A DNA stretch of 29,145 bases from a virus. The notes beneath the pieces are model-generated. The model had not been told where the DNA came from and searched no databases. It saw only the letters and a list, made by a program, of their open reading frames with translations. The first letter of the stretch is position 1. The number at the start of each line of letters is the position of its first letter. A program made the position numbers and the translations under genes. The stretch is from IMG/VR virus record IMGVR_UViG_3300006734_000028, positions 1-29,145 of that record, one strand, 5' to 3'. Below, piece after piece: positions 3,001 through 27,000 of this stretch.

Positions 3001-6000
3001 ATCTACATAAGCTCTATCTCTAGAGCTTCCTTTGAACTCTGATGTTTCTTCTCTTATTAATAGCTTAATAGATGTTTTACCATATAGGTATGTATCAAAA
3101 AATGCAATCTTTCTAGGATTAGCTAAAGCACCTTGCTGTTTTAATAAGCTAATCTCTTCGCTAGTTAAAGGATAACCTTTAATTATTCTATCGTAAATCT
3201 TTTTAACTGCACTTGTATTTTTACCTAATGCAGGTAAATAAGTCCTAGTATACCAAAAAGGATTGGAGTAACCTTGAGCATTTGTAGTTTCTGTTCCTTT
3301 AGCATTATATACATCATCAAGTATAGCAACTTTAGATTCTCCATAACCTATAGCAGGTCCAGCTGAGTTAGGCCCTGCCATTCTTTTTACAAAGTCAATA
3401 GGGTTTTTAAAGTTATAAGCTATATCCCCAAACATTAAGTTATTATAGTTTAAGGAGTTCATGCTAGAGTTAAAGAAAAACTCTGCTATATTGTTCATGT
3501 TTAAAGTATTACCTTCTGTCCTATAGAACATAGGTAGAATGTTTACTTTAATCTCCCCTTCTTTATTTTCATAAACAAGTTTCTCTGATTTAAGAAGCTC
3601 AACAAATTCTTCTAGCTGAGAATTAAAGGCATTTTTAATAAGGTCTTTAATTTCTGATTGGCTTACAGGAAGATCATTATTACTTCTAGCAGCTTCAACT
3701 AGTTTGTCATAAAGAAGAGGGTTTGTATTTCTAAGGAATTTAAAGTTAAAGAAGTCTGTACCTCTATCTCCTAATTTAGTATTGTATCCTTTTACAATAT
3801 CTCTTTCTGAGTTTTCTTGAATTTCCTTTGTTACTTTTCTAATCCTTTCATACTCTTGCATGAAATGAGTAAAAGCTATATCAGCACCAGCATTATTTAA
3901 ACCATTATCAGCAGTTGAAAGTTTACTCACAGGCATACTAACAGCTACTTGAGTATTCTTAGCTTCAATGTGCAGAGGAATAAATGGTGCAAATCTTACT
4001 TCTTTTCCACCTGGGATGGTTGCTTTTTTGTTGAAAGTATTTTGGCCATTATCAACAAAGTAAGTCATCATAGTGTACAGAGTAGCTCTAGCATCTAAGT
4101 CTGCATATACAGAACCAGATGATTCTTTATAGTTCTCAGCAACTACTTGAGCACCACCATCTGCTGAATCAATACTCTTCAATGATTTGTTTCTTAAACC
4201 ATCATTAAAGAATAACTTAAAGTTTTGGAAAATGATATTAGTAACTCTAGAGTTATCAGATTCTATTGCAGTAGAATTAATAGGAGTAATCATGCTATGA
4301 AGCAGAGGATTGTTTTTTACAGAATCATAGAATGATTCAATCTGATAGTCAGTAAATGACTTACCAAACTGCTGTAAAACATCTTTAAGCATTGAAATGC
4401 CATCCTCTCTATTTTCTGCATTAATCCAAGACCTAAAGTTTTTATCTTGGAAAGCTAAAGTTTGAATTAAAAAATAGTTAGGTGCTAAGTGAGTATATTG
4501 AGTTTCACCATCAGCATTTTGAACTACAGTAGAACCTACATTTTCATCAAAGTAGCTATTACCTAGTGCCATATTTTTTAACCTACCTACAGCTCCTGCA
4601 GTAACTGACTTAGCATTTTTTACATCTTCTAAGTCTTCCATTTCATCAAAAGCAGTGATTGTTGAATCAACCAAAAATGGACTACCTGTTTTTAATGAAT
4701 CTAATATACCTTGTATATCATCTTCTCCAAATACCTCTACACCTATAAACAAATCATAGTTATCTTTGATTTCATCTAGGTATTGTTTTAGTTCAGGTGA
4801 AGATTTTAAGTAAACTTCTTCATACTTTCCTTTTTGAATAGCAGTATCTAAAAGAACATACTCAACATAATTTTTAGATAGAGATATTCCTAAGCTATCG
4901 AATAACCCTTGAACCTTAGCAACATAAGCAGGTTTCTCATCTGGGTTTAGCATTTTGCTATAATCTTTTAAAGAACGCTTAATTTCTTCAAGGATGTCTC
5001 TAGCTGCAGTTTTATTTTCATCAAAGCCTTTTATTCTCCAGTTTTTTGCCCATTCAGATATCTGCTTTTCTTGGACATCATACATATTTGTTCTAAATAC
5101 TTTGAATAGTCCATTACTAGGGTCAGCTAAAGTTGTAATTTGGTTTGACTTATATTTGTTAAAGTTGGCTATAAATAAGTTGTACTTGTTGGATTTAAAC
5201 AAAACAGAAGAATGCATGTTAGCAATATCTTCATTGGATGCATTAATCATTCCTAGTTCTGTTTTAATATCCTGCATTAAAACATTAAAGAAGTTTTGAA
5301 CCTTAGGATTACTCTTAGCTTGGAAAGCTAGTTTCTTTAACATGTCCTCTCTTCTAGTGTTAGTCATAATAGCCTCTACACTAGTGTATAGTTCATTAGG
5401 GTCTATGTAACTATTAAATAGCCCTGATGCTAATTGTGCTTCAGTAAGACCAATGTTAAATTCATCCACAGGCATTTCCATTAGAGACATATATTCTCTC
5501 ATCTGTTTAGATGTAGAACCTAGTCCTCCTAATGTTCTATTATCTTTAATGGCTAAATCCATTGGGGTATCATCTTCTTGATACTCTAACCCATCAGGGT
5601 CATCTTCAAATTGGACAGATTCTAGTCTTCTTCTAATTTCTTTTGCAAATTCAATACTTGCGTTAGAACTTAAAAGAGAAATAAGACTATCATATATCTC
5701 TTTAATTTCTAGCTCAATTTTAGTAGCTTTAGCAGCATCAATCTTAGCTAGTATATCTCCATAGATAAAATTATCACTATTTACATCATAGTAATTATCT
5801 ATTACGTTTAATAATGCCTCTTGAATACTATCATCTGTTACAATCCCTTCTTCCTCTCTTATTTTAAATACTTCTTTTAGTACTCTATTGTAAACTCTCA
5901 AACTAGTTGTAGAGTCTAAATACCCTAGCGTACGTTTTGGAATTAACTTATATACTTCAGTATCTGCTCCATAGAAAATAGGGAAAGCTCCAGTTTCTTT

Positions 6001-9000
6001 AGATGCTTTAAAGTTTCCATGGTAGATGCTATCAAATAGAGCATCTATATCAGCCTTATTATTTGTTACCCAATTGGCTAATGCTTTTAGTTTATCAAAG
6101 AATCTTTTGATTAATCCTTTTATTCCAGTATACTCTTTGTCTTTTCTTACTGCATAGCTTTGGAAATCATCAGCCATCTTCTCTTCATACCACAAAAGCT
6201 CAAGCTGTCTATCATTTAAGTTTTGATTTTTAGGAGCTTGGTTTTTTAACTTTTTTAGTTGAATAGATGTAGGCTTTCCATATCTAACTTTAGCTTCTTT
6301 AAACAATAAGTTAAGTTCTGCATCACTTAAAAATGTTCTTACTACTGCATGGAATGCTTCATGATACTCTACACCTTTAGAAGCATTTCTAGCTAAGTAG
6401 ATAACTTTCTTGAAGAAAGCTCCAGAAATCTGTCCTTTATTTTTAAGGTTCCTTTTGATAGTTTCAAACTCTCTAAATGTAATTACATTTGGAGGCAGCA
6501 TTCTTTGAAGGTTAGTAAAGGCTTCTTCTAAATCAATATTATCTTCAGAAGGGTTCTCTTCTATTTTAAAAGCTGATGATGTTTTTGAAATAATTTTTGC
6601 TTTTCTTTCTTCTAGATCTTTTATTTCTGCATCTAGTCTCTGTAAATCTGGATTGGTTTTTCTAGCTTTTACAATTGCTTTATTGACTCCTTTATTATCT
6701 TCTCTTATCTTTTCAATTATTTTTGCTGCTTCATCTTTTTTCTCACCTATCTGTTTATTGATATCAGCAAGTTGAGCATTAAGTTCTTCACTTTCATCTT
6801 CATTAGTAAACATAGAAGGAGTCATAGTAGTAAATTCCTTATCTATGTAATTTTGTAAATAGGCTATATATTTTTGAAGTGCAGTTGCTAAACTAAGGTC
6901 TTTTTTAATTTCTTGTTCTATTCTTTTCTTTAAGTCTCTAGCTTTATCTTTATCCTCAGCAGTATCAGTATTAATATTCTTTACTGCTTCAACAATATCG
7001 CTAACTAAATTAGTAGTTTTAGAACTAGCTGGTGGTTTTGGTTTTGAAGCAGCTGCAGATAAACTCTTAGGCCTAAAGCTTAAAGAAGCTAGCATATCTA
7101 TTCTAGCTTGCAGGTTATCTGTTTCTAGACCTACTACAGATGTTTTACCTTCTTCATCAGTTTCTTTAATCTCAGCAGATTGTTGGAAAGAAGATACTTC
7201 AATATTTTCTGTAAAATAAAAAGAAACTACTTTAGATATAGCCTCAGCAAGTTCTTCATTTGATTCAATTATTTTAGGTTTTACAGAACTATCTTCACTA
7301 TTAAAGATTATTAGGTTTGTCTCAGGATTTACTAGAATGTGTGGTGCCTTTATTCTTGTTCCATTTTCAGATACATAAGGCATATTAATGTATATCGTTT
7401 TATTCTTTTCTGATGTAGCATTAGGATTATATACCTGTATAACCAATCTAGGATTAGCTTTAACAACACTATCTTTATCTTTTTGGTAAGTGCTATTATA
7501 CTTGCTAAATAATAAGTTTATTCTAAGTTTAGCACTATCTTTTAATGCAATAAATCCTGTGTCTACAGGAAAAATATCTAGCTCATCTCTATTAGTAGTA
7601 TTTGCATTTTTAACACTAGTCTCAAAATCAGAGTAAGTATCTAGAATAGCTACTTTAAGAGAATCTTCAACTGGCCTATCTGGATATGTTAAACCTATAG
7701 TATTAATAGTTTCTTCATTATTACCAATCAATATATATTGGTTAGTAATTACATGGTCAATTTTATCTCTATTAGGTGCTACATAAGTATCATAATAAAA
7801 ATTATAATCATCATCAGCAACTTTTTCATAGTTACCTGATTCTTCAGAATAAAGAAAAATACTTTGGTCATAGCTCCTATAAATAATAGGTCTAGTAGGT
7901 TTGCCTTCCTTATCTGTAATCTGTAAGTTAGGATTAGAAGATAAAGATTCTAAAGACTCAATAGTACCTGTAGTGTAATTTAAAGATAAGTTAGGGAATA
8001 AAAAGTTATCCAAAAATTCAGATGGAAGAGTTAGGTTATTCTTAAATGCTTCATCTGCAACTGTCCAGAAATTTTGTAGAGCATTGTAAGTATTAATAAA
8101 CTCTGTGCCTAATCCTGATGGTACTAGTGCACCATTATCTATCATTACAAAATCAGGATTTAATTTTTCAAGGTCTTCAGCAGTACCATTGAAATTTCTT
8201 AAACCTCCACTACCATCATCAAACTGATATCTATTGGGGTCATATATATAACCTATGATAGTCCCTTCATATTTAACAGCTAATTGTTGTTGCTTTCCAT
8301 TATACCCTTTTCTAATTTTAACACCTTGGTTAGTAACCTCTTGGTTGTTTTCATCAGTAGGGTTAACTATTTTTCCACCTTCAGTATCAGTAACTAACTC
8401 AATAGTTATTCCTTCAAAGTTTTTAACCTTATCCTTAGTTAAGGATTTTAAAATCTCAACAGCATCTGGATTTTTTAAATCAGGTTTAACTGTAAATAGC
8501 TGAGAGGCTTTTACAATAATAGGAACAAACCCTTTACCTTTTTTAGGTGCAGGTTGATTAGTAGCTTTTAGTTGTTGTTTTAAATTACTAATAATATTTT
8601 GTAACTCATTAGAATCTAAAAACTCTTTATAGTTATCTCCTTCTTGTGTGCCTTTAAAACTATCAGCAAACTTTTTAGCTTCTTTAAGTTTTTCCTCTAA
8701 GTATTTAATTAACTCTGGAAGAGGAGTTTCACTTTCTAATAAGTCTGTGTATTCTTTACTAAATTGGTCTATCCAAGATTTAAATTGAGCACTAGCATTA
8801 CTATTTTGAACTACTCTGTTTAATGAATCTAAAGCTTGATTATTTTGAACAATTCCAGTTTCTTGTTTTACTGCATGGGTAACAAACATATTACCTCTAA
8901 TCATAAAGGCAGCTTCTTGAATTTCCTTTACTTTAGTTTCTTCAGTAATAGGTGTAGTAGAAGATGCCATAATAAACTCATCAGAAATTCTATCTTTCTC

Positions 9001-11715
9001 AGCGAGCTGATTTATATTTTCAATAGATTTAGTAAAGTCTTCTCTACCTTGTTCAGATAAGAACATATTATATTCACTAATAACTTGTTCTCTATACTTA
9101 GCAAGTTTCTTTAAATCCTCATATACTTTTTTAGGATTTTGAGCAGTTCTTTCTGCAGAAACAGGTAACTGAGCTTGGAGATTGATTTGGTCTTTAAAGT
9201 CTATAAACATTTCCATGTCTTGACCAAAAGCATCTACATCATTATTATACTCAAGACTAGAACCTCTTCTAAGAATCTGTAGCATTTCTCTAGCTACTCT
9301 CTTTCTTTCTTTTTCAAGCTCTATAATTTCTTTTTCAATTCTCTCAATCTTTTGTCTATCTTTAATTAAAGTCTGTTCTCTTCCAGCCCAGAGTGTGCTG
9401 TAACCAGCAAACTTAGCTTCTCCATTTATAAGTGTTTCCCTTCTTAAATTCTTTTTATTTATCTCAGCAATAATTCTTTTATACCCTTTGATGGTTTGGT
9501 CATCTAATGCTAATCCTAGTTGAATATATCTCTTAACATCTGCATCATTAATTAGCTTTCCAGAGTATTTAATAGCCAAATCAGATAAAGATTTTTCTCT
9601 TTCATCAATGTTATCTAATGTACTAATAGTCCAAGCTAACCCATGATTAAGAGCTATGTTATCTGAATTTGTAATGTTCTTAGCTGTCAATAACCCATCT
9701 CTAATTTGTTTTGCTCTAACTTTTGTTTGAGCTATAGCTTCATTCTTTCTTTGAGTTATCTCTTCATCAGTCATGTTTTCATAACCAAACTCTTCAGCAA
9801 ACTCATCATTTGTCATTGAGGAAACAGTCTTAATAATATCTCCTTCAATAGCATCATACATTCCAGCTTCTGTTCTTCCTAATACATATCCAACAAATGC
9901 ATCATTCTCAGCATTTTTATATTTGAACATATCATTAAGCTCAGCTGCTTTATCCATTTTTTGAGTAGCTACAAGTCTTTGCTGACCTGCTAAATACATT
10001 CCTTTGAATATATTTCCAAAGTCTTTAGACCTGTTAACAGTATCTACTAATCTATCTACTTGTTGCTGATTAGCTTTATCTGCTTTATAAGAACCATATA
10101 TACCACCTTGCCAACCACCAGGTCCTGCAAATCCAGTTAATCCTAATATAGCACCAATTAATACTTCTTTTAATCCTTCTTTACTGCCGTAGGTATCTTC
10201 CATACCTTTAGCAAAAGCAGACATAAGACCTACACTAGTATCTTTAGCTTCTGGGTCATAGTAGTTTGTTACATATTCTAATGCTCCTCCACTTAAAGAA
10301 CCCTGCATACCTTCTTCCCATACACCTTCAGCAAATGCTGATTCTGTTCTTCTTCCTACAGTTCTTAGTGTATTTAATACTTTATCTGTTGTAGTAGTAC
10401 CTCTAATAGCTTTTTTACTTACTACATTCATTGCCTTAACTTCATCGATAGATACTCCTAAATTCTTAGCAGCATTCTTAAGTTGTTTTGGAGTTAAAGA
10501 CTTAGTAGCAATAACATTGGCTTCTCTTGTACCAAAGATTCCTTTACTAAATGCTGCTTCATTAGCAGCCTTATGACTAGCACCTGCACCAAACCTTTTA
10601 GTTAGTCCTGGCCCAAAGCTATTAGGTAAAGTAATCATATTGTTTAATGAAACTAATGCAGCATTAGCAGCAAACAAAGCATTACCTACATTATGAGCAT
10701 TATCCATAAATGCAGACATTTCTTCTGGCAAAGGGTCTCTACCTTCTCTGTTTCTGAAATCTTCAATATAGTTTCTTCTAGCTTCATCTACAAAGTGTCT
10801 AGCTTCTACACCAGCTTCATAGAAAGAGCCTACTGCCATTTGTCTAGAAAACTTTCCTAGCTCTTGCAGTGTTTTACTATTTACTCCTATTGCAGTTTTA
10901 GCACCAAAAGCAGCAGTTTGGTAACCTTTCATAACATCAGAAGCTCTGTCTGTATATTTTAAAGCTTTGGCTGCTCTAGGAACAATCATAGCTGATGCTA
11001 AACCTGCAGTTAAATACTCAGAGATAACAGCTCCTGCTACAAATGACATACCTCCAAGCATATCATTTGCCCAGAAATTAACAGTTCCCATTTGTTGTAG
11101 TAAGCTATAATCTTCTACTTCCCTTCTTACATAATTAGGAAGATACTCATCCATAGCTTCATTAGCACTATCTAATGCTCTTTGAAAATCATTATCATAG
11201 AATGAACTAAAAGACCTATTAGCTATAGCAGCTCCTATTCCATATGCTGTACCTATAATACTTCCAGCTACATTAGTAGTAGTTTTACCTGCAAACTTAA
11301 TTACACCATTAGTTATTTGAGATAAAGCTGATTGGTCTTCTGCTAGTAAGTCTTGAGTATCTGCACCAATACCAGGATTATATCCTAGTTCTTCAGCAGC
11401 TTTTTGATAATTAGCAGCAGCTTCTCCTTTTATCTCAGGAGCTTCATAACCTGTAGATATACCTCCTGGAGTGTACTCTGGAGTTTCAAACATATCATCA
11501 TAGGCATATCCTTCTTCTTCTAATGCTTTTTTAGTTCCAGATTGTCTGGCTAACTCAGAAAGCTGAGAAGGACCTACACCCATAGACCTAGCTATTGATC
11601 TTTCTAAGGATGCGTCTTTTTGAGATTGATATTGTTGTGCTTGAGCTTTAGTTTTAAATTTAGGGTCTTCCCCAAATTCCCAAACTCCTTTTTGTTCGTT
11701 GTATACTAAAGGCAT
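1..11715 (-). CDS. Giant virion RNA polymerase polypeptide (DFDID type) with zincin domain; 3' end outside window
   Basis: The frame starts at ATG 11715-11713 (an in-frame TAA lies at 11733-11731) and stays open to the left edge: 3905 codons with no stop yet. The first 600 residues hold hydrophobic, Gly/Ala-rich stretches (about 146-165, 225-245 and 516-541), suggesting membrane interaction. Charged coiled-coil regions follow. An HEAFH zinc motif lies at 1785-1789 with likely ligand E1844/E1845 (WYEEKMADDF). From about 2700 the chain matches the crAss-like RNA polymerase family: FFFNSSMNSLNYNN, Gly-Asp, FVKRMAG (K2777, R2778), RIPTQDKHSMV, and then SGADFDIDSEF with D3254-F-D-I-D3258 as the metal-binding site. 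In phi14:2 gp66, this family is a virion-packaged single-chain RNA polymerase that transcribes early genes after injection. Here it carries a much longer N-terminal part than gp66. A lysine/glutamate coiled coil (3300-3405) follows DFDID. Confidence 0.85.
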   Translation of the reverse strand, partial: MPLVYNEQKGVWEFGEDPKFKTKAQAQQYQSQKDASLERSIARSMGVGPSQLSELARQSGTKKALEEEGYAYDDMFETPEYTPGGISTGYEAPEIKGEAAANYQKAAEELGYNPGIGADTQDLLAEDQSALSQITNGVIKFAGKTTTNVAGSIIGTAYGIGAAIANRSFSSFYDNDFQRALDSANEAMDEYLPNYVRREVEDYSLLQQMGTVNFWANDMLGGMSFVAGAVISEYLTAGLASAMIVPRAAKALKYTDRASDVMKGYQTAAFGAKTAIGVNSKTLQELGKFSRQMAVGSFYEAGVEARHFVDEARRNYIEDFRNREGRDPLPEEMSAFMDNAHNVGNALFAANAALVSLNNMITLPNSFGPGLTKRFGAGASHKAANEAAFSKGIFGTREANVIATKSLTPKQLKNAAKNLGVSIDEVKAMNVVSKKAIRGTTTTDKVLNTLRTVGRRTESAFAEGVWEEGMQGSLSGGALEYVTNYYDPEAKDTSVGLMSAFAKGMEDTYGSKEGLKEVLIGAILGLTGFAGPGGWQGGIYGSYKADKANQQQVDRLVDTVNRSKDFGNIFKGMYLAGQQRLVATQKMDKAAELNDMFKYKNAENDAFVGYVLGRTEAGMYDAIEGDIIKTVSSMTNDEFAEEFGYENMTDEEITQRKNEAIAQTKVRAKQIRDGLLTAKNITNSDNIALNHGLAWTISTLDNIDEREKSLSDLAIKYSGKLINDADVKRYIQLGLALDDQTIKGYKRIIAEINKKNLRRETLINGEAKFAGYSTLWAGREQTLIKDRQKIERIEKEIIELEKERKRVAREMLQILRRGSSLEYNNDVDAFGQDMEMFIDFKDQINLQAQLPVSAERTAQNPKKVYEDLKKLAKYREQVISEYNMFLSEQGREDFTKSIENINQLAEKDRISDEFIMASSTTPITEETKVKEIQEAAFMIRGNMFVTHAVKQETGIVQNNQALDSLNRVVQNSNASAQFKSWIDQFSKEYTDLLESETPLPELIKYLEEKLKEAKKFADSFKGTQEGDNYKEFLDSNELQNIISNLKQQLKATNQPAPKKGKGFVPIIVKASQLFTVKPDLKNPDAVEILKSLTKDKVKNFEGITIELVTDTEGGKIVNPTDENNQEVTNQGVKIRKGYNGKQQQLAVKYEGTIIGYIYDPNRYQFDDGSGGLRNFNGTAEDLEKLNPDFVMIDNGALVPSGLGTEFINTYNALQNFWTVADEAFKNNLTLPSEFLDNFLFPNLSLNYTTGTIESLESLSSNPNLQITDKEGKPTRPIIYRSYDQSIFLYSEESGNYEKVADDDYNFYYDTYVAPNRDKIDHVITNQYILIGNNEETINTIGLTYPDRPVEDSLKVAILDTYSDFETSVKNANTTNRDELDIFPVDTGFIALKDSAKLRINLLFSKYNSTYQKDKDSVVKANPRLVIQVYNPNATSEKNKTIYINMPYVSENGTRIKAPHILVNPETNLIIFNSEDSSVKPKIIESNEELAEAISKVVSFYFTENIEVSSFQQSAEIKETDEEGKTSVVGLETDNLQARIDMLASLSFRPKSLSAAASKPKPPASSKTTNLVSDIVEAVKNINTDTAEDKDKARDLKKRIEQEIKKDLSLATALQKYIAYLQNYIDKEFTTMTPSMFTNEDESEELNAQLADINKQIGEKKDEAAKIIEKIREDNKGVNKAIVKARKTNPDLQRLDAEIKDLEERKAKIISKTSSAFKIEENPSEDNIDLEEAFTNLQRMLPPNVITFREFETIKRNLKNKGQISGAFFKKVIYLARNASKGVEYHEAFHAVVRTFLSDAELNLLFKEAKVRYGKPTSIQLKKLKNQAPKNQNLNDRQLELLWYEEKMADDFQSYAVRKDKEYTGIKGLIKRFFDKLKALANWVTNNKADIDALFDSIYHGNFKASKETGAFPIFYGADTEVYKLIPKRTLGYLDSTTSLRVYNRVLKEVFKIREEEGIVTDDSIQEALLNVIDNYYDVNSDNFIYGDILAKIDAAKATKIELEIKEIYDSLISLLSSNASIEFAKEIRRRLESVQFEDDPDGLEYQEDDTPMDLAIKDNRTLGGLGSTSKQMREYMSLMEMPVDEFNIGLTEAQLASGLFNSYIDPNELYTSVEAIMTNTRREDMLKKLAFQAKSNPKVQNFFNVLMQDIKTELGMINASNEDIANMHSSVLFKSNKYNLFIANFNKYKSNQITTLADPSNGLFKVFRTNMYDVQEKQISEWAKNWRIKGFDENKTAARDILEEIKRSLKDYSKMLNPDEKPAYVAKVQGLFDSLGISLSKNYVEYVLLDTAIQKGKYEEVYLKSSPELKQYLDEIKDNYDLFIGVEVFGEDDIQGILDSLKTGSPFLVDSTITAFDEMEDLEDVKNAKSVTAGAVGRLKNMALGNSYFDENVGSTVVQNADGETQYTHLAPNYFLIQTLAFQDKNFRSWINAENREDGISMLKDVLQQFGKSFTDYQIESFYDSVKNNPLLHSMITPINSTAIESDNSRVTNIIFQNFKLFFNDGLRNKSLKSIDSADGGAQVVAENYKESSGSVYADLDARATLYTMMTYFVDNGQNTFNKKATIPGGKEVRFAPFIPLHIEAKNTQVAVSMPVSKLSTADNGLNNAGADIAFTHFMQEYERIRKVTKEIQENSERDIVKGYNTKLGDRGTDFFNFKFLRNTNPLLYDKLVEAARSNNDLPVSQSEIKDLIKNAFNSQLEEFVELLKSEKLVYENKEGEIKVNILPMFYRTEGNTLNMNNIAEFFFNSSMNSLNYNNLMFGDIAYNFKNPIDFVKRMAGPNSAGPAIGYGESKVAILDDVYNAKGTETTNAQGYSNPFWYTRTYLPALGKNTSAVKKIYDRIIKGYPLTSEEISLLKQQGALANPRKIAFFDTYLYGKTSIKLLIREETSEFKGSSRDRAYVDSLYDNLKTLDQSSDEFKATLREIHKFWKPIRGRETLHNRLNKMELENVPFVIHASAIKGAITNLNANEDEEYQTTVINNQFVREQVSTDSMKDKIVHGTQLMQLISSEHKDDTPVIFKGKNTTIGDLRKFYRKLLGDRVIDSFRMMREAILDEDIPKYKYLLDSFRGSILESGGDPLLMEMFSSAYQSADMPEYNLNLPSIEQKFENMFLAFMSKGVLSQKVPGHKFTLVSDDGYQIYRNEKGEPYTGKEASLLLPSKLGEPSRLQYHKKDDSKNVYYAECMISAQLATELGLKPGDKIPPYMLELVGVRIPTQDKHSMVFLKVVDILPGVTGNQIVMPADILDLSGADFDIDSEFVRTADFYRDEKGKIRVYGDYLESKNPNQVAFQEFINSIKKQDKRVKKDIKDFESQNEDYIKLVNEKATLQNSLKRLEDELGVSLLASDLSDADLEEFLDDEEGLDALLSEYEAQRNERISDQQKEILKKIKTLNKSIKKVKKEILLAVLDKNGYPNTQEDFDYRYGKQIKDNIEAFNKGDITGITPLTIGEGNNMTLEIEKSLIYNEGNADIATSPADDKLGQDFMKKNYNAEEEDSSNKFNNPSSVATIFTPTDIVKANSANSIGKDNVGIAAIWNVAYAYLRQNTIGLRKQFLDDRNLLLSAMGFDNAVKTILNYSFDTDYTRDTTETRNSVRIVHINSTQITFAVDNAKFQYAAYFNLSTNTLGPVLVMTGKGMSFDRAMLINIQPAVLEYEKAAKVVGGQLKTQEEKSFTKADAILDLISEYSEELKKIKPEGAGNVELTPENLIQAKLFAEDKPSTMQRWQYLEIQLQSLLAIDAATKESETIRELGNVLSLIKGSKTDFIEMNGITESLKKLGIEVVAKSGTRGLDPNDYEIKHTKDFDDLDIPYDLLPILKGDGLVSSNLKTFAAIMKISEMFVITQTKFALKTFDRVKLSFKERKNSSVLNYTDNAKALKNQFIAFLSAKAFGYKKGKKFSYDTLF

Positions 11716-11767: not shown

Positions 11768-12652
11768 TTAACTAGAATAGAATTCATCATATATTTCTTT
11801 AGCGTTATTTATTCTTTTATCTAAGTGGGGTACTCCTGGATTCTCAAATATTTCCATAAATATTCTAGCAATCTCTTGAGGGTTATCTAAAGAATCAAGA
11901 GCTTCTTTAAGTTTTTTTCTGTTTCCAGCACTCATCATATTCACTCTTCCATTGATTACATCATCCATATAATCAATTTGGGATTGTATACCATCTTGCT
12001 TATTATTATCTTTTAAGTACTGCTCATAGTACTTTCTCATAAAGTCATACTGAAATATTCCATAACCATTACCACCTTTCTGTTGTAATGTTGGGTCAAA
12101 AGTACTACCTGTTTCTACTGCAATATTACCCATTATACCAGCAACTGCTGCTGGAGAATATCCTTTAGATTCAAGATAAGATTTAACAAGAGCTTTATTT
12201 TCAGTAGGGTTTGTTCCTTTTGGTACTGTTACTACATCACTCATTTGAGGTTGTTTTACACCAGAGTATCTTCCTACATATCTTCTTTTAGCTTTTTTGT
12301 CAAACTCTTGAATGGCTTGGTTTAAAGGCATTATGTTTACACCTCTTGATGAATCAGACTGGAAAAACATTAAGTTTCCATCTTTACCTTGTATAACCAT
12401 ACCTACATGGTCAATACCATGTTTTCTTCCTTTATCCCAAGTCTTATCACCAGTATCTTCAAATAGTAAATCACCATGTCTTAAGTCTCCTGCTATTTCA
12501 GCAAAAGAGCTAAATCCTGAAAACTTTTCAGTAGCTTTTTCATATATATTTTCTGATGTGCCTGAAGCATTAATACCATCTGCTTTAAGTAATTCACATA
12601 CTGCACCAGAGCAGTCTATACCTTCTGCATTTTTTTTAGTTCTCCACTGCAT
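11768..12652 (-). CDS. NlpC/P60 endopeptidase plus phage tail lysozyme frame
   Basis: The first ATG gives 294 aa. Residues 1-130 are NlpC/P60-like: catalytic Cys in GIDCSG (C14), then RHGDLLFEDTG and GIDHVGMV (His82). Residues 152-294 resemble the phage tail lysozyme family (Phage_lysozyme2): SPAAVAGIMGNIAVETGSTF with E180 as probable catalytic Glu, then GGNGYGIFQYDF. Together they would cut peptide stems and glycan strands of the cell wall during entry. The ATG is a poor start because it cuts the NlpC domain. The frame stays open upstream to a TAG at 12736-12734, and those codons encode ANQLLGKPYD, the usual segment before the DCSG Cys. No ATG, GTG or TTG lies in that extension. I therefore think this frame is mainly translated by -1 frameshifting from the 932-aa gene. 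Internal initiation at 12652 remains the alternative. Confidence 0.8.
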   Translation of the reverse strand: MQWRTKKNAEGIDCSGAVCELLKADGINASGTSENIYEKATEKFSGFSSFAEIAGDLRHGDLLFEDTGDKTWDKGRKHGIDHVGMVIQGKDGNLMFFQSDSSRGVNIMPLNQAIQEFDKKAKRRYVGRYSGVKQPQMSDVVTVPKGTNPTENKALVKSYLESKGYSPAAVAGIMGNIAVETGSTFDPTLQQKGGNGYGIFQYDFMRKYYEQYLKDNNKQDGIQSQIDYMDDVINGRVNMMSAGNRKKLKEALDSLDNPQEIARIFMEIFENPGVPHLDKRINNAKEIYDEFYSS

Positions 12653-12688
12653 ATCATAAGGCTTACCTAATAGCTGATTAGCTTTATC

Positions 12689-12730
12689 TAGAACAGGAGT
12701 TCCTTCTCCTATTCCACCCTGTACTTTCCC
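12689..12730 (-). promoter_or_regulatory. Programmed -1 ribosomal frameshift signal (slippery GGGAAAG plus hairpin)
   Basis: On the minus strand, GGGAAAG lies at 12730-12724 and is read in the zero frame as G GGA AAG, the X XXY YYZ form used at the lambda gpG/gpGT shift. A 7-nt spacer (UACAGGG) follows. Then comes a hairpin with 5' arm UGGAAUAGGAG (12716-12706), loop AAGGAA and 3' arm CUCCUGUUCUA (12699-12689): 11 pairs, two of them G-U. The zero-frame UAG lies within the 5' arm. A -1 shift gives GGG AAA GUA, which is the hydrolase frame. All the spacing is typical for -1 frameshift elements. Confidence 0.8.
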
Positions 12731-15507
12731 AGGCTACCTGTAGAGCCTCCCACTCCAGATGAAGATTGATTAGATGCACCACCTGAGTACATTTGGGTTA
12801 CACTAGGTATTGCAGATATTTGTGCTTGTCTTTCTGCTGCAGCTTGCTGTCTTTCTATATCCCCTTGTGATTCTAAGTAGGCCATTTGGTGATATCCCAT
12901 AAACTTCAAGAACTGACTAAAGTTAGATACATTAACAGGAAGTTCAACTTCACCTTTAGTTCTAGTATTAGATAAAGGAGCAAATGCTCCAGTTACATCA
13001 TTTATTAGTTTTCCAATAGTAGCGCTATTTCGGCCATTAATTTTTAGTGCATAAGGTTCTTGTCCTAGTTTAAACTTAACAATTTGACCTTTTAGTCTAT
13101 CTGAATTTTCTGTGATAGCTAATGCTGTAGATACGCTAGATATTGAAGAAGGACTTAATAAAACCCTAGCATAAATTTCTGCTCCTTTGTCTTGAACATT
13201 AGGGTCATCATCTTGAACAAAAGAAGTAATAAATCTAGCTAAATTGTTTTTATTCATATCAGGCAATGTAATTGGGACAGTAGATGAATTGCCAGCTTTA
13301 TCTTTTACAGTAAAGTATAGTATTGGTAGAGAAGACTCACCAAGACTGCCTAAATTAACATCTGAAACTTCAACTTTATCATCTTCAGCTAAAGCAAAAT
13401 TAGGACTTTTTAATATAGCATTGTTAAATACTTCCCTTACATCATTTAAGTTTAGATTTGTTTTTCCTATATCTCTTCCACCTGTGTACCCATAAGTTTG
13501 AAATAAACTAAGTAAGTTTTGAGGGTTATCATTATAGTAAGCTTTTTGCTCTTCTAAAAAAGTTTTAAATTCAGACTTCTTAGAATCTGTACTTCCTAAG
13601 TCTCTTATAAATGTTTCTTGTTGAATTTTAGCATTTACTGGTGATTTTTGTCTAAACTTGTCAAGTGCAGAATAAAGCTTATCATATCCAAATTGTTTAG
13701 TTAAATCTCTAGCTTGACCTAAATATTGTTGTTCAAGGTCACTGCTAAATATACCTTTAACATAGTTTCCAACACCAGGGTCAAGTATACTTAGTTCATA
13801 TTTATCTCCTCCTAATGCTTTATAGAATTGTAAAGCTGTATTATTATCTCCACCATTTTCTTCTAAAGCTTTTATTACATTGTTTCTTACATTAGCATCT
13901 GGATAAATATTTTCTAACTCTTGCTTAAACTCTGGATCTTTTAAAGCTTCAGATATAATAGTCTTACCTATTTGCTCTTCTATATTTTGAAGATTCGCTA
14001 AAACTAACTTTTTGTCAGTTATCTCAGTATTAAGTTTAAAAAACTCTTCTGCTATAGCTTGAGTTGAGGCATTAGGAGAATCTGCTAAACCATTCATTAA
14101 AGTAAAAAACTTCTCTCTAGCTTCTTTATATGCAGATTTATTTTGCCCTTCTTCACTTAATTCATCCATTAATGCTGCTAAAACTTTATCTGCTCTTCCT
14201 GCTTGTTTGTCTTGCAAAATTGAAACAAGAGTATATTTATTCCCCTGAGCATCTCCATCTCTAAAAAGCTCAATTGCTCTATTTTTAGTATTTATTGTAG
14301 CATCAGCTAGTAGTTGATTTAGTATTTCATCCATGCTCATTAAAAGATCATAAGCTGGTCTTCCTTCTTCTGTGTTGCTAGCAGCTAAAGGAGCTAATTT
14401 TTGTAAGTACTCATTAAATGCTGTAGCTTCAGCTCTTTCAATATTTAATTGTAAATCACCTATATTTTGAGAATAGTTAGAAGTTCCAGTTACATCTACT
14501 ACTGGTCCAGGAACCATAATATAATTATAATCCTCAGGTTCAGGAGTAACTCCACCAGCTGTAGCAGGGTCCAAAACAGTTCCTTCTGTTTTTACAGTAG
14601 TCTCAGCTGGATGTTCTTTGTAGTCTATAAATGAAGAAATATCAAGAACTTCAGATATATATTTATGAATATCTTCATATGTATCATAACCTTTTCCTGC
14701 TTCTACTTTTACTGATCCATCAGGATTTTGAATTCTAACTGCAGGTTTATTTTTATTATCCTTAAAAGTTTTAAGAAGCATAGCTTGTCCTGAGTTATCA
14801 TCAAGAATTAAACTAGCAGCACTTTGAATAGCCTGATCTATTACTGGATCACCTTTTATAATTACTTTTTTTGTTCTACCTCCAGGTTTATCCATAATGA
14901 TAAATGCTCCAGATGCTTTATCTTGGAATACATAAGCATTAGGCACATCGTATGTTGTCCTAGCCTGTTCTTTTAGTCTTTCAATTACTTGCTTATAAAC
15001 AAAGTTTTGAGCATCATCATTGATAGGCTGTACAATATCTTCATCATTAATTTCTCTCCAATTTCTAAACTTAATCTCTTGAGTTATAGGGTCTACATAT
15101 TGTAATGTAGGAAAGTATGCTGTACCTCCTGCAATCTTAGTTAAATCCAGTTTATCTGCTAAATCTTTTTGTCTAGCAAGTTTTTTAACATCAGGGTCTT
15201 CTTTAAAAGCAGTACTTATCTTACCTAAATTAGATGCTATACCTGTAAAGTTACCTTTGTCTTTTTCTAATTGTGCAGACAACTCGTTAATTTGTGCTTT
15301 ATACTTATTAACAATTGGCTCAACAGCTCCTTGTTGTTCAGCCCAAAAAGGTGCTTTAACAGGTATATCTGGATTATTTAAAGCAGTTCTAGTTTCCTCA
15401 AGACCTTTCTGTTTAGCTTCTATATTTGAATACATAAAATCTAAAGGCAGTGGTACAAACTGACTTTGATACTCTGACTCAACAGGTTTAATAAATTGGA
15501 CTGCCAT
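12709..15507 (-). CDS. Internal virion (cargo-type) protein, zero-frame product
   Basis: This is a 932-aa protein. Its N-terminal segment (FIKPVESEYQSQFVPLPLDFMYSNIEAKQK is split here as SEYQSQFVPLPLDF and MYSNIEAKQK) resembles the opening of internal or cargo proteins in crAss-like and other podovirus-like phages: a Pro-rich 'fvPlPld' patch followed by a helix. The rest is mainly charged helices with some mixed alpha/beta stretches, and no catalytic motif that I can recognise. The C-terminal 60 residues become Gln/Ala and then Ser/Gly rich (SGGASNQSSSGVGGSTGS), like a flexible linker that leads directly into a frameshift signal. ATG follows the upstream TAA by two bases (TAATTATG), so translation is probably coupled. 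It terminates at TAG (12711-12709) inside a hairpin. Before that stop, GGGAAAG allows a -1 shift into the hydrolase frame, so this gene probably yields both a 932-aa form and an extended form. Confidence 0.8.
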   Translation of the reverse strand: MAVQFIKPVESEYQSQFVPLPLDFMYSNIEAKQKGLEETRTALNNPDIPVKAPFWAEQQGAVEPIVNKYKAQINELSAQLEKDKGNFTGIASNLGKISTAFKEDPDVKKLARQKDLADKLDLTKIAGGTAYFPTLQYVDPITQEIKFRNWREINDEDIVQPINDDAQNFVYKQVIERLKEQARTTYDVPNAYVFQDKASGAFIIMDKPGGRTKKVIIKGDPVIDQAIQSAASLILDDNSGQAMLLKTFKDNKNKPAVRIQNPDGSVKVEAGKGYDTYEDIHKYISEVLDISSFIDYKEHPAETTVKTEGTVLDPATAGGVTPEPEDYNYIMVPGPVVDVTGTSNYSQNIGDLQLNIERAEATAFNEYLQKLAPLAASNTEEGRPAYDLLMSMDEILNQLLADATINTKNRAIELFRDGDAQGNKYTLVSILQDKQAGRADKVLAALMDELSEEGQNKSAYKEAREKFFTLMNGLADSPNASTQAIAEEFFKLNTEITDKKLVLANLQNIEEQIGKTIISEALKDPEFKQELENIYPDANVRNNVIKALEENGGDNNTALQFYKALGGDKYELSILDPGVGNYVKGIFSSDLEQQYLGQARDLTKQFGYDKLYSALDKFRQKSPVNAKIQQETFIRDLGSTDSKKSEFKTFLEEQKAYYNDNPQNLLSLFQTYGYTGGRDIGKTNLNLNDVREVFNNAILKSPNFALAEDDKVEVSDVNLGSLGESSLPILYFTVKDKAGNSSTVPITLPDMNKNNLARFITSFVQDDDPNVQDKGAEIYARVLLSPSSISSVSTALAITENSDRLKGQIVKFKLGQEPYALKINGRNSATIGKLINDVTGAFAPLSNTRTKGEVELPVNVSNFSQFLKFMGYHQMAYLESQGDIERQQAAAERQAQISAIPSVTQMYSGGASNQSSSGVGGSTGSLGKYRVE

Positions 15508-15509: not shown

Positions 15510-18500
15510 TTATTGAATTTTTCTTATTGTTCCATTAGGTAATACTTCGTATGTATTACCTTCACTATCTGTTACTACTTTGTTAGTTCCTTTAGAATTC
15601 ATATAATATTCAGCTCCTCTAGGACTTAAAACTTGTCTCCATCTTCCTCTAGCATCTCTTTCAAACTTAAATGGACTAAAATCTTTGGTTTCCAAAGCTC
15701 TTAGGATTTCTTCTTGTCCTCTAGTTTTAGCAACATCAGTTATAACACCTTGGCCAATATCTCCCAATCCAGCTGCACCTTGCATTCTTAATTGGTTTCT
15801 GGCAGCTTCATCTCTAGCTTGGTTCAAGATATTAAACTGTCTAATTCTATCATTATACATTTGTTCTTGTCCTTGGATTTGTGCTCTTCTAGTATCAATG
15901 TTAGCTCTTTGTTCAGCTACTTGTTTTCCTACATTAACACCCATAGAAGGAGCTGTTACTGCTAGGTTAGATAAGTAAGCTCCTGCAGTAGGACTTCCTG
16001 CTCTTAAAGCACTTCTATATGTACCTAATGCTTGGTTACCAGCTTGTCTTGCTAAAGCTACTGGCTCATAACCTGGCCTTTCAAATTTAACAGGTGCTGC
16101 TGCTCTAGTATCTTCAGCAGTAAAAGAAGTTACAATATTAGCTAAAGGTGCAGCTGATGCTGCTAATCCTCCTGCTACAATAGGAGCATAGTTAGACCTC
16201 CAAGGAATATATCTTTCATCTTCTCCAGGACCAGTTTCTGTTTCATCTTTTCCAGAACCAGTTGGTGTTGCTGAAACCTGTGGCCTAGGTCGATTAAAGT
16301 TTCTTAGTGCTATTTCAGTAGGGTTTAAAAGAACACCAGTTCCTGGAGCAGTTGGTGAGGCAGTACTTGTTGTGTTAACAACTGGTTGTGAAGTAGGTGT
16401 TTGTCCAGTAGATGATTGTGTATTACTCCACATATTTATTCTAGGCAAAGAAGTTTTTTGATATACATCAGGTGTACCTTTAGTTGTCCAAGTATTTTTG
16501 TAAACTTCTCTTTTTGCTTGGTCTAATAAGTCTGTATATCCAGGTTCATTCATTCCCCTAATAATGGCATCTTTAGAAATAGACCATAAATTAGCATCAT
16601 ATGGTTTACTTTGGATATCCTCAAGTGACCTTACACCTCCTGTATATAATAATAAATCTTCAACACTTCTTCCTGTATTATATGCGTAATCCATTAATCT
16701 TTTTTGAACTTCTTCTGGGTAGCCTTCTACTAAAGGTTGGTATTCTTTAGATAAAAACTCTAAAGCTTCATCTTCAGTTATTTTATTATCAGCCCACATA
16801 TCAGGATATTTCCCAGCATACTTACTTTGATTTATTCCATAATTAGGCAATCCAGTTCCTTGTGAAGAACCTTGTGTAGATTCATAATTTAAAATCTGAT
16901 TATACCATGAAGGGTATTTACTACCAGGAAGAACATCTCCATCTTGATAATACAACTTACCACCATTTCTTCTCATCAAAGGATTATATCTCCCACCATA
17001 TCTCATAGGAGGTTGACCACTTCCCATCATTCCTTGTTCATAAGGAGGTTGAGGTTGTTGTTGTTGTCCTTGTTGTGATTGTTGCATTACCATTTGAACT
17101 GCTTGTATAGCAGCTTCTTGAGGTAATCCCATTTGTACAAGCTGAGCTACAATCTCTTCAGGTTGCATACCTTGTTGTAACATCTGCATAATAGCTTGAA
17201 CTATCTGTTCTGCACCACCTTGAGCCTGTTGTTGAGGAGCCATTTCTCCACCCATTTGATACATATATCCACCACCTCTCATCATAGGAGGAGCTTGTTG
17301 TGGTTCCTGTTGTGGAGCTTGTTGTTGTCCTTGCATTTGTTGAACAACCATTTGTACTATTTGAATAGCTTGTTCTTGTGGTACACCCATTTGAACTAGT
17401 TGTCCTACAATTTCTTCAGGAGACATACCTTGCTGTAGCATTTGTGCTACTTGCTGAAGTATTTGCTCTTCACCACCACCACCTTGAGGTTGACCTTGTT
17501 GTGGGGCTTGCATCATTTCACCACCCATTTGATAATATCCTCCATATTCTTTTGCAAAGTTTCCAGCAAAGATAGCTTTTTTTATCATAGCTGAAGAATA
17601 TTTACCTTTAGGTGCATTTCGAATAGTTCTAGCTGCCTCTTGTACACCCATTCCCATTTTAGAAGCTTGAGCTTTAAAAGTACCTTTTTTAGCAGGGTCA
17701 ATGTGAATACCACCTTGAGCATACATCATAGGACCACCATAAGCATACATAGGTGCTTCCATATCTGGAATATCAACATTTGCATTTAGCATATCCATAT
17801 AACCACCATCTTCCCAAGTAGCTCTAGCATAAGCTCTAAAGTATGGATTCTTAGCTAAGTTCTTTTTATGTCTAGCATAGAAAGCATCTTTACCATATTT
17901 AGATTTACCTCTTTCTCCTAGCTTAGGGTCACCAAAATATTTCTTAGTTCCATCAGGACCAATAACTACGTGAGTTTTTCCTTTTCTGTCATTAGACCTT
18001 CTAACAGTATATCCACCTTCTCCATACTCCATAGTATCATCATCACCAATGTAATCTCCCATATATCCACCTACTTCCATATTAGATTTAATCTTTGCTT
18101 GTACATAATCAGGTAAAGCACGAAATCCAGGATTGTTTATACCACCTCCGTTACCATACTCAAGCATGCCTCCCATTGCTTTGCTTTCTTCTGCTTGAAT
18201 TCTTTTTTCTTCCCATAACATTTTATCAGTAGGCTTTTTTGGTGTTTTACCAGTACGTTTATTTTCTGCTGCTTTTTTACGAATGTTATCCCAGAGTCCT
18301 CTTCTAGAGTAAGAGCCATCTGCTCTTTTAATCATTTTACCTCCTTGTGCCATTTTTTCTTCAATAAAAGGTGCTTGTGTTTCAATAGGTTCATCTGTTA
18401 ACATTTGCTGAGAACCATCAGCTCCTGTAACCATTATAGGGTCATTGTTATAAGTAGGAACTACAGATGTTGGTCCACTACCAGGGAATGCAATACTTTG

Positions 18501-21500
18501 AGCATTAGGATACATATTATATCCACCAGCTCTTTCTTCAGGAGTTTCAGCTATAATATTAGAGCCACCCATTATTTGAGACCTCATAGCTTCCTCTTGC
18601 ATTCTTTTAGCTTCTCTGTCATACTCATGTGCCATCATAAGTTTTTTCATTTCCTTATCTAGCATCTTCTTTGACAAAGGGTCATTAGGTCTAAGTTTAT
18701 CTCCTGCTTTTGATTTAATCATTTTACTTAAATCAGCATAGCTTTTACCAGCTAATCTTTTAGCAGCCTTACCAGTAATACCAGCAAACTCTAAAGCTTC
18801 TAGTGAAGCTTTCATTTTCTCTGACATTACATAATTTTCTGGAGTATAGATAGTTTCTGGACCTTCAACTTCTACATCTGGTCTTCCACCATTATTAGGT
18901 AAAGTAACACCACCTTCTTCATGTGATGGTCCATCAATTTCTGTTAATCCCATATTTTGGTTTAACATATGACCACCACCTTGATAGCCATATCTAAATC
19001 TACCACCATTTCTGGCCATAAATATTTTTGAAAATCCTTCCATACCTTCTGGTATTTTATCTTTATCGTTAAGTCCTGTAAATGCTTTTGTGCTACCCAT
19101 ACCTTCTAAAGCAGTTCCTATTCCAGTAGCTGTAGGACTATTAGGGTCAATACCTTTAATACCTTGTCCTAGTCCTTCTGTACCTTCTTCTATGGCAGAA
19201 CCCATAGCTCCAGGATTAAGAAAAGCTCCACCTACAGCTCCACCTATATTTCCCCAACCTTTAAGACCTGCTTGTCGTTTAGCTTCTTCAGAATTAACAT
19301 CATGTCCAGCAGCAGATTGTAATGCTTTAAAACCAGCATCAGTTAGTTCATTAGTTGCACCAAAACTTATAGTATCTAAGAATCCTGCACCTACACCATA
19401 ATTAAAAGCCATAAAATCTTCAAAAGCACTAGCCTTTTTGGTATCTTTTCTCGCTACATCTTTATTCAAGTCAACAGCTTGTGCTGTATCTTGTGCAGAT
19501 GTTAATGAACCACCTCTAGCATATGTTCTTCTTTTAAATATATAATTACCTTCTTTAGGTATAGAGTCTGCTCCTAATTTACCATACTGTTCTAAGTTCA
19601 TCATAAACTCATCTTTTGGTGTTCTTAAAACCACTCTGGTTTCAGTTTCACCTGTCATGGGATTTATATATGGTACTTGACTAATAGTTTCTCTAAAGTT
19701 TCTAAAAGGTGCAGAAGTTTTTGGTGAAGGATTTGTAGATGTAACTGCAGGTTTGTATTCTACACGTTCTACTGGTTTTTTGTAGATTAGGGCTGCTGAA
19801 GGTGTTTCTGGTGAAATCATATTAGTAGGATATACACCAGTTTTTAAAGATTGATTTAAAAGAGCTAATCGCTGATTTAAATTTTGTCTAACAAATTTAT
19901 TAGGTTGCCAAGATAGTTCTTGTTTAATTTCTTTAATATCATTGATTATATCAGATTTTTTAACATTAGTGTTTCCCAAATTTTTAGTTGGTTTATATTC
20001 TGATTTCTGAAACATTTTTTCTTCATTTGGCTCTCCATAATAATTAAAGTTAACAAATGGTTGTAATCCTTTTTTATATAAACTCGAACTATCTTGATAA
20101 GCTTCATACCTAGCTCTACCTGCTGGGTCATTAGGGTCTACATATAAAGTAGGTAGTGGACCTACATCTTGTTGATAGTATAATTTACCTCCTTGTCTTC
20201 TCATAGTAGGTTGTGAATCTTGCATTTGATTTACTCCGTATATTGCAGAACCTATTGCTATTGGAGGAACTATTGTTTTCATAGTACCGTAAACAGTTCT
20301 TGGGTCATTGTAAAATCCTACAGCTCTACCAGATTTAATAAAGTTTTCCCAAGCACCTCTTGAAAAACTTGTTTGAGAATTAAAACCTGGTTTTACTCTA
20401 CCTAAATCTAATCTTTTAAGATATTCGTTTATAGCTTCATAAGCACCTGTACCTCTTCTAGGTATATTATCTGCAAATACTCCTTGAGTTGTATTACTCA
20501 TTTCTAAACCAGGAATACCTCTATAGTACATTGTATTTGCAATATCTTCTACATTACCTCTCCATTGTCCAGGATTCAGTCTAACTCCCCAACTTGATTG
20601 TCCAGATGGTATAGTTACATTTACATCCCCCTGTTTTATAGTTTGTTCTGGTGTATAAAAAACTAGTCTACCATTTTCATCTAAACCTTTAACTCTATAT
20701 TCTACACCAGATCTATTTTTTTGAGCAATTATATCATTAAGTAAATCTAATTTTGAATTAAATTCATCAGTATATTCTTTGTAGCTTAAAGGTACAACAT
20801 TTTGAGAACCACTAAATTGAGGTTCTAAAGAACCTTGATAGTAAGGAACAATTTCTCCATTAGGTTTTAATACTGTATTTTCAAATTCTTCTTCAGACAT
20901 TTTAGAAATAACATCTTTATCTTTATCCCCTGCTACTAGTAATGTTTCTTCTTTAGTTAATCCTGATTTATTTTTTACTATAGGTTTACTACTAGCTGTA
21001 GATGTAGAAGCAGTATTATTAAAAGAATTATTGTAATTTATCCTTGCTCTATACAAATCTTCTGTAGTCATTAATCTAGGAACTTCAGAAATAATATCTT
21101 TTAAAAATTGAGATTTTTGTGAACTGCTAACACGTTCAAGAAGCCTAGCAGCATCATCAACATCTCTTACATCAGTAGGTATATTATATCTATCAAATAT
21201 ATGCTGAAAACTTCCTCTTTCAAAATAAGGTACTTCAAGTCTATTTTGATTAGACCAGTTAATTAAAGCCTCTTCTGCACTTTGTAAACTATTTACATTA
21301 GAAAGATCTGGATTTCTATACTGTAGCATTTGTTTAGCCGCTCTTCTTAATTCTTCAGGAGTATCTTGAGCCAATCTTTGGTTTAAGTTATTAATTTGAA
21401 AATTAGAGGAGTTTAGTGTATTCTCGTCAAGCCAATTTGTAGCTCTCCAGTTATTAGCTTCTGTATATTGGTTATAAGCTTCATTATTTGCATATTTTGA

Positions 21501-24047: not shown

Positions 24048-27000
24048 TAGTAATAACTTAAAGTAATATTAGTATTAAAATCATTAAGCCTAAAGTATCT
24101 GTTACCTTGGTTATTATAAAAGATTTTAATCTTAACATATACATCTCTAAGGTATGGCTTAATTGGCAAAGGGCTGTTGAAATCTCTGATAGCATTGATT
24201 CTCCATGTTCTTTCTCTTCTAACAACATTTTGTTGTGGTGTTAATAGTAACAGAGATGAACCAGTAGTTTGATAGTCATTATACAATAGAATACCTGTTA
24301 TGGTTTCTAGAGGAATATCAATGCCATTTATATCAAATACTTCTGACCAGAACTCTAATGTATCTAAACGAAATGTAGGAGTTTTAGTTGCATCTGGGAA
24401 GTTAACTATAAACTCTGCTTCTGATATAGATGGGTTCTGATTATAGAATTGTCCAAAGTTTCCTTCATTATGCAGATACACAGAGTTACTAGTATCAAAA
24501 GGGTTTGATGATAGTAATCTTTTACCTGTAGGTAAATATAGTGAAGGAGTGAAAGAATAGAAAGATTCAAATGCTTGCAACATTTCATTGAAAGCAATAG
24601 TGAACTTATAAACAATCTGATTCTTTTGTAGTAATGGAGTTATAGAACCAGTAACTAATGATACAGTTAATTGAGTAGTATTGATATCTTCTACCTTGTA
24701 AATATTAGAACCAATGTAAAATATATCTCCTATGCTTAGTACTGATAGCTCTTTAGGTGAGTAACCATTAAGTATATACTTAGTAGGGCTTCCTGGTACA
24801 ACAGTTTCAGTAGTAAAATCAATATCAAACTTATTCATGAAAGTCATATAGACTTTATTGTACTTAGAATCATAAGCACCATGGATACCTGTATTAAGTA
24901 ATACTTGGTCAGAGTCTAGAATAACTCCTTGTAGTTTTTTTCTAAAGAAAGCTGATAAGCCTTTAACATCAGATATATTCTCTAATCCCCGGCTTACTCT
25001 GAAGAACTTTTTAGTTCTAGCATCAAAAGAGTAAATAGCAGCAGGGCCAGTAACTACACTATGCTGATGGAAAGAACCATAATCTTTACTTAAGTAATCA
25101 TACCTAGCTAATACATTACCAGTACCTACTTGATAAACAGCACCAGTACCTACATCAGGTACAGCTGTATTTTCTTGAGAACTAACTTGAGCTATAGCTC
25201 TACTTTGGAAAGCTACAATTGCTTCTTTGAGATTTGTTATTTTATTAATCTCTCCATAGTTACCTTCAAGAGCTAAGTAGTTATTAATCAAATATTTTCT
25301 CCAGTTATCTTCAATTTCTCTATCAAACTTTTCTTCTGATACCCACACCCAGTTAGGTTGGTCTTCATCAGTATCTAAGTTAAAAGGTTTAGGAGAATAT
25401 ACTTTTAAGTTATTGTCCTGAGAATATGCTCTATTGTAGGTATATTCATCTACTAAGAATTTAGCAAAATCAGTTCCAGCTGCTCCAGGAGTTACATTCT
25501 GAATACCATTATTAGGTGAGGTAAATACTTGACTATTATTCCAATAAGAGCCATCTCTGTACTCAGTATTAATACTAGTTTCACAAGGAAAAGCTAAAGC
25601 AAATGCTGACATTGACTGTGCTACAGGGTAATAGTTTTCTCCTAGTCCTGAAGGTGATGCATTAGTAAATCCATAAGTTTCTTTCCAATGAAAGAACCCT
25701 AATGTAGTGCTATAGTAAGAGCAATAGATATCTCCACCAAATACTTTAATAGCTTGTGTAGAAGCTATTACACTTTTAGGGAAAAAATCAGATGCAGATA
25801 TGTAAGTATTATTATACCTAGAAGCTCTCCAAGGTCCACCATATTGTCCAAAATTATATCTACAAAGAGATACTACTCTATAAGCAGGGTCTTTAGGACC
25901 TACTACAACATTATCTTCATAAGCTCCACCTTGTGTAACTGGGTCAAGAACATTGCAATTACCATTAAAATCACAAAATAGTGACTTAGAAGCAAATCCA
26001 GATAATTCCCAATCAGTACCAGCACCATCTGTTTCAGTGTTAGGTAATGTGTATATTGATATATGGTGGTAATCTTTACTAGCCATTTTTACAGGAGAAA
26101 AACTAGAAGGTATAATTCCTTCAATATCTACTTCTGTTTGTCTTAAAATATTTACAATGGTATTACCTCTAGGAGCTAGAGAATAAGCTAAAGTTTGATA
26201 CTTAGCTAAAAATGCTCCAGCTTGTCTAGAAGCACCACTAATATAATCTGCCCAATAACAAACACCTTGGTTATAGAATTCTCTTAGTCCTGTAAATGTT
26301 CCTGTGTAGTAAGTATTTGCATCTGGAAGTCCTGGCACAATACCTGAGGTAGGAGTAAATTCAAATGCTTGAATAAGCTTAATATGTGAAGCATCTCCTA
26401 CAGTATATTCTTCAAAATCAAATTCTGGGAATTTAATTATACCTAGCTCATTTTTTCGTAGTACTATAGCACTAGTAGCACCAGTATCTGCTCCATGATG
26501 TGCAGGTGCAGCTCCAGTGCTTAAACCAGAATTCCAAGTTTCTCCTTCGCTAAAATCATTATTAATAAATAGTAGAGGTATTTCTGGATTAGCTCCAGTA
26601 TTAGTTTCAGAGTTACTAAAAGACATTAAGTGAAAACAATCAGTAGAAACACCTGTGCCTGATAGCATAATTCTGCTATCTAGTAATCCAAATAAAGCAC
26701 CTGTACCAAACCTAGTTTTATCTTTCTTTTGTCTTTCTACTCTTACTATTCTTAAGCCTGTAATGTTTGCAGGTAGGTTTTGGAATGTAAATTCTACACC
26801 CATTGACCTAGTATAAATTCTCTTATCTCCAAGTCCATCATCTTCATATGTAGATAAATCTGCATACTCACTACCATCTATAACTCCTTCCCAAGGCTCA
26901 GGTATTCTAATATCAGCTATCCAATTAACAAATGATTCTTGACCTTTGTCATTATAAAATACTACACCAAACCTATAAACTTCTCCTCTGGCATAGCCAT

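Follow-up and report, generated by a model that had tools for sequence, protein, structure and literature searches.

A programmed −1 ribosomal frameshift very likely (probability about 0.93) joins c2, a gene of a crAss-like phage, to a peptidoglycan-hydrolase module encoded in the overlapping frame. The slippery heptamer, its phase and conservation, the exchange of domains behind it and, for some loci, the lack of any ordinary start codon are all shown by sequence; slippage itself, its rate, packaging of the product, enzyme activity and a role in entry are inferred. The window, by which we mean the whole stretch of DNA analysed (29,145 nt), is a 29-kb fragment of a crAss-like phage from IMG/VR, in which the genes follow the order muzzle, ring-1 fragment, cargo-1-domain protein, c2, −1 module and gp47-like protein (Table 1). 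Its placement among crAss-like phages is supported by matches to the muzzle (PF25731), ring-1 (PF24228) and cargo-1 (PF25725) families in crAss order, and the N-terminus of the 3905-aa protein matches phi17:2 gp039, csAssE-Sib and crAss001 gp47. The cargo-1 type protein is more than three times as long as crAss001 gp45 (842 aa), and has a sub-threshold UBA-like match at residues 2297-2325.

Table 1. Coordinates of features in the window
Feature	Position	Strand	Remark
Muzzle protein	24047..28849	−	PF25731, 7e-135; places the phage among crAss-like phages
2845-aa protein with crAss cargo-1 domain, upstream of c2	15510..24047	−	PF25725, 1.5e-12
c2, 932-aa zero-frame product	12709..15507	−	Probable virion/cargo protein, judged by position
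Slippery heptamer G GGA AAG, in c2 slippage phase	12724..12730	−	Conserved in 15/15 distinct loci
Spacer TACAGGG, 7 nt	12717..12723	−	TTCAGGA in L009/L010
11-bp hairpin, arms TGGAATAGGAG (12716-12706) and CTCCTGTTCTA (12699-12689), loop AAGGAA	12689..12716	−	Holds the zero-frame stop
c2 zero-frame stop TAG	12709..12711	−	In 5′ arm of hairpin
−1 frame extension, 318 aa after the putative slip	11768..12730	−	NlpC/P60 (PF00877), then Phage_lysozyme2 (PF18013)
First ATG of the −1 frame	12650..12652	−	Start here removes first NlpC/P60 helix
3905-aa protein downstream of −1 module, gp47-like N-terminus	1..11715	−	Runs off contig

The slippery heptamer and its conservation

In the zero frame of the minus strand, the 3′ end of c2 reads ...GGC TCT ACA GGT AGC CTG GGA AAG TAC AGG GTG GAA TAG, and no stop interrupts the −1 frame between a point shortly before the heptamer and position 11768. 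The original prediction described a GGGAAAG phased to the zero frame and, after a spacer of 7 nt, a hairpin of 11 bp that includes the UAG, all of which held on the minus strand. It also assigned NlpC/P60 and tail-lysozyme domains to the −1 frame, and both met our requirement of a profile match above the curated Pfam cut-off (PF00877, 1.6e-7, 31.7 bits against a cut-off of 23; PF18013, 1.4e-29, 103.5 bits against 28.2). Its further claim that codons ahead of the first −1-frame ATG encode the missing beginning of NlpC/P60 held as well: the N-terminal stretch VLDKANQLLGKPYD lies ahead of this ATG, and the −1-frame peptide VQGGIGEGTPVLDK is wholly upstream of it. The predicted fusion junction is ...GSLGK-VQGG....

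We identified 14 further distinct IMG/VR loci of the c2 gene family, all of them metagenomic contigs, bringing the set with c2 or its tail to 15 (the window, L009, L010, L011, L014, L015, L024, L036, L016, L017, L018, L097, L102, L105 and L113); L012 and L013, nearly identical to L011, were not counted separately. These relatives were reached by scanning IMG/VR with an alignment of the gp47-like N-terminus and distantly related proteins, then with c2 profiles, and then with a second gp47-like alignment, an alignment including crAss001 being too divergent for scanning. Scanning IMG/VR with the hydrolase or c2 as single proteins returned no relatives, DNA and protein searches of named phages yielded no c2 relative, and no c2-family locus was found in GTDB genome contigs. 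Identity to the window c2 protein is 49-50% in L009 and L010 and 14-24% in the other loci; judged by the gp47-like N-terminus (53% identity), L105 is the closest after the L009/L010 group. Both frames are under protein constraint (58% and 50% identity).

In all 15 loci, the short 0/−1 overlap that closes c2 contains a correctly phased GGGAAA[G/A], and the −1 frame passes through it without a stop. The heptamer is GGGAAAG in every locus except L018 (GGGAAAA), and its distance to the zero-frame stop is 15-54 nt in the 13 loci first analysed. The 13 full-length c2 genes (11,258 codons) contain 13 in-phase copies of GGGAAA[AG], all 13 within the overlaps (265 codons) and none in the approximately 11,000 other c2 codons; L105 and L113, which were added after this count, also have the heptamer in phase. 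A relative in which the heptamer was lost with the two frames still separate would have refuted the original prediction, and no such case exists among the 15 loci; its frameshift reading is instead supported by retention of the phased heptamer in c2 proteins 14-50% identical to that of the window.

Although Gly-Lys is encoded at the site in every member, in both frames, protein conservation does not explain the heptamer, because the preceding codon varies (L, V, M, G, S or P) yet always ends in G, as do only 5-10% of c2 codons, and because the Lys codon is AAG in 13/14 loci versus 16% expected. Conservation at the site is at the nucleotide level. As a control outside the c2 family, 331 ORF ends gave a single GGGAAAG in an overlap, located three bases before the stop in an ordinary start-stop gene overlap. 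In the comparison of the window with L009/L010, the last c2 codons show only mildly raised conservation at synonymous positions (p about 0.02).

Structures around the heptamer

The 40-nt stretch with the window hairpin has a minimum free energy of −14.7 kcal/mol (z = −3.4), and none of 200 shuffles was as stable. This hairpin is common to only two relatives, L009 and L010, in which 10 bp are kept through two one-sided pair-preserving changes without any double compensation. The description of the hairpin as textbook likewise holds for the window and these two relatives only, the heptamer being the conserved part of the signal. Strong downstream structure is seen in the window, L009, L010, L017, L018, L102 and L113, and weak structure in L016 and L097; L018, L102 and L113 have strong stems of their own downstream of the heptamer, and L017 has an 8-bp stem with a possible pseudoknot formed by a GGGG/CCCC crossing (GAGTGGAG/CTCCACTC). 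No downstream hairpin was evident in six loci (L011, L014, L015, L024, L036 and L105), and an RNA structure common to all members was looked for and not found. In those six loci we infer, from sequence alone, that the stimulator differs or is absent. A stimulatory structure 5-9 nt downstream is common at bacterial −1 sites, and is not obligatory.

Upstream of the heptamer, at 9-15 nt, many members contain GGAGG, which also encodes a Gly-rich linker. In dnaX, an upstream Shine-Dalgarno sequence serves as a stimulator; it is possible that GGAGG acts in the same manner, but this is no more than a lead, since the linker is encoded by it too. A GGAGG...GGAGGNNCCTCC-like element, palindromic and Shine-Dalgarno-like, is located about 10-35 nt upstream of the heptamer in L011, L014, L015 and L036, and the mean fold energy of the 50 nt upstream of the slip site is also strong across members.

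Exchange of modules in the −1 frame

The −1 extensions range from 119 to 715 aa. Three of them (L011, L014 and L024) contain no ATG, GTG or TTG anywhere, and therefore have no ordinary start of their own; in L036, L018 and L097 no start codon is present ahead of a large part of the domain, and the first −1-frame ATG of the window, like those of L009 and L010, falls after the first NlpC/P60 helix.

Nearly every locus encodes a cell-wall hydrolase, or a domain similar to one, downstream. NlpC/P60 followed by Phage_lysozyme2 occurs in the window and in L009 and L010, and L105 has an M15-type domain in place of NlpC/P60, with the lysozyme domain kept. M15-type modules that have HxxGxAxDxR...HYH motifs and, by profile, weakly match L-Ala-D-Glu and D-Ala-D-Ala peptidases are found in L011, L014, L024, L097 and L015, while L017 carries M23 (PF01551, 6.3e-29) and a second module in common with L016. 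A helical module with an ‘ES...N...GKYQ’ lysozyme-like motif is common to L018, L036, L102 and L113; its predicted fold gives weak, non-significant matches, many of them to T4 lysozyme, and a PDB profile search with it returned only implausible matches. The best match of the predicted fold of the L016 module, an endolysin, is also not significant. The lysozyme-like label for L016, L018, L036, L102 and L113 has only motifs and weak fold matches behind it. The lysozyme-like module of L036 (4047-4601) does not have the Glu present in its homologues, and may be inactive or mis-assigned. Three sister pairs on the c2 tree, L015/L036, L016/L102 and L017/L018, differ in their modules, indicating that modules were exchanged several times behind an unchanged slip site. 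After the hydrolase modules, the C-terminal 250 aa or so of the extension are common to L015, L017 and L113 (more weakly L016 and L102); this domain of unknown function has the motif AYHDLGSFSAKP near its end and no Pfam match.

The c2 protein

The c2 protein belongs to no Pfam or PHROG family. No relationship to crAss cargo 2 was detectable by sequence: there is no Pfam match to crAss_CARGO2 (PF25712, gp46), and the profile-profile probability is 0.1%. Nor is homology detectable to any proven crAss virion protein. The c2 gene is flanked by the cargo-1 and gp47-like genes, and the equivalent interval of crAss001 encodes three proteins that mass spectrometry has detected in virions, namely cargo 1 (gp45), cargo 2 (gp46) and gp47 (PMC10172136); c2 therefore occupies the slot expected of a cargo protein. 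It is likely that c2 is packaged in the virion with other ejected proteins, although packaging has not been shown, and the original designation of c2 as a cargo protein remains an inference from position.

Alternative explanations

One alternative is that c2 and the hydrolase are two separate genes, the latter being translated from its own start by internal initiation or by termination-reinitiation after the c2 stop. In its favor, the window offers an in-frame ATG at 12652, followed by a 294-aa ORF. We consider it very unlikely, as this ATG falls behind the beginning of the NlpC/P60 domain, three relatives have no candidate start codon at all, and the phase-locked heptamer in 15/15 loci would be left unexplained. 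Also very unlikely is that Gly-Lys was kept at the c2 C-terminus for a reason of protein function, with the heptamer as a by-product. The presence of Gly-Lys in every member fits this view, but the invariant G before it and the near-invariant AAG go against a strong opposite codon bias, and, counted from exactly this heptamer, the −1 frame runs without a stop for 119-715 codons.

Judged by its anatomy, rather than by a test, a single contig in which one gene had been split by a one-base change, whether through assembly or sequencing error or through decay of an in-frame fusion into a pseudogene, would look alike; this is all but ruled out by recurrence of the arrangement in 15 distinct contigs whose downstream domains differ, and by protein constraint on both frames. 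Reassignment of the stop codon, joining the frames by readthrough, has in its support the TAG stop of the window and the reported reading of TAG as Gln in some crAss-like phages (PMC9523058). It can be practically dismissed, since the hydrolase is in the −1 frame and cannot be reached by TAG readthrough, and the relatives L011, L024 and L016 use TAA as the zero-frame stop. Transcriptional slippage, which requires a long homopolymer run, was rejected, there being no such run at the site.

Comparison with known systems

The nearest analogues of the proposed c2 frameshift are T7/T3 10B, the Ig-domain frameshifts and lambda G-T. T7/T3 10A/10B and the Ig-like frameshifts of Lactobacillus phage A2 and Listeria phages A118, A500 and PSA have been reviewed (PMC5009743); as proposed for c2, the shift occurs late in a structural gene, close to its 3′ end, and places a C-terminal domain on a fraction of the copies, and the added domain can move between phages (PMC5009743). 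Those shifts, however, extend a major capsid or tail protein, usually by an Ig-like domain, whereas c2 encodes a presumed cargo-zone protein, which would gain a peptidoglycan hydrolase. Furthermore, the direction of the shift, and even the need for it, vary between phages (PMC5009743), whereas in c2 one heptamer and its phase are fixed and the domain changes. The lambda gpG/gpGT −1 frameshift uses the same GGGAAAG. The gpG/gpGT ratio is 30:1 (PMC5009743). Unlike c2 with its hydrolase, lambda G and GT are chaperones of tail assembly that are absent from virions and lack an enzyme domain, and no relation between them and the c2 proteins was detected.

Among crAss-like phages, Phage_lysozyme2 is likewise encoded between the muzzle and gp47-like genes in bajarodcaudo virus 1 (cargo-1), phi17:2 (gp042) and csAssE-Sib, but there it is in-frame on a cargo-1 type protein or forms a separate protein, without a frameshift on c2. 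In bajarodcaudo virus 1 (L008 15011-17974) the match is partial and in-frame on the cargo-1 protein, a counterpart of the frameshifted arrangement. In csAssE-Sib (L002 7299-8933), a gene for a Ro60-related protein is located beside tRNA genes, between the muzzle and the tail lysozyme. Tape-measure lysins, matches to which were seen in our searches, have a wall-degrading domain on a virion protein, as proposed for the long form of c2. T7 gp16 is also a virion protein with a wall-degrading domain. Neither T7 gp16 nor the tape-measure lysins are known to involve recoding, and the domain is part of each copy, unlike what is proposed for c2. The original prediction was unaware of any such shift described in crAss-like phages, and we found none either in the open-licence literature searched.

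Proposed mechanism and implications

Under the frameshift reading, most ribosomes would end c2 at the zero-frame stop, and a fraction would shift one base backward at G GGA AAG, with both tRNAs pairing anew on GGG AAA, aided in the window by the hairpin seven bases downstream. The slipped ribosomes would read on into the peptidoglycan-hydrolase module and produce a protein of about 137 kDa, in which c2 is extended at its C-terminus by a wall-cutting enzyme. A subset of packaged c2 copies would thus bring along an enzyme that breaches the periplasmic wall as the DNA enters. The original proposal that the long form makes up a minority and sets hydrolase stoichiometry remains an inference. The slip site would constitute a fixed socket, behind which the enzyme has been exchanged several times (NlpC/P60 with lysozyme, M15 with lysozyme, M15, M23 and lysozyme-like).

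In a bolder version, toward which we lean only slightly, a socket conserved in one crAss-like lineage arms a sub-population of a virion-cargo protein, and recombination behind the site swaps enzymes from at least four hydrolase families, perhaps to match different host walls, with the dose set by slippage. Recoding would then give interchangeable entry enzymes a stable point of attachment. We found no such role for it in a review of frameshifting (PMC5009743) or in the crAss papers searched. Gene callers will annotate proteins of this kind as separate, truncated or missing, and some of the extensions lack a start codon altogether. The arrangement offers a direct and testable answer to the question of how a wall hydrolase could be present in only a few copies in these phages.
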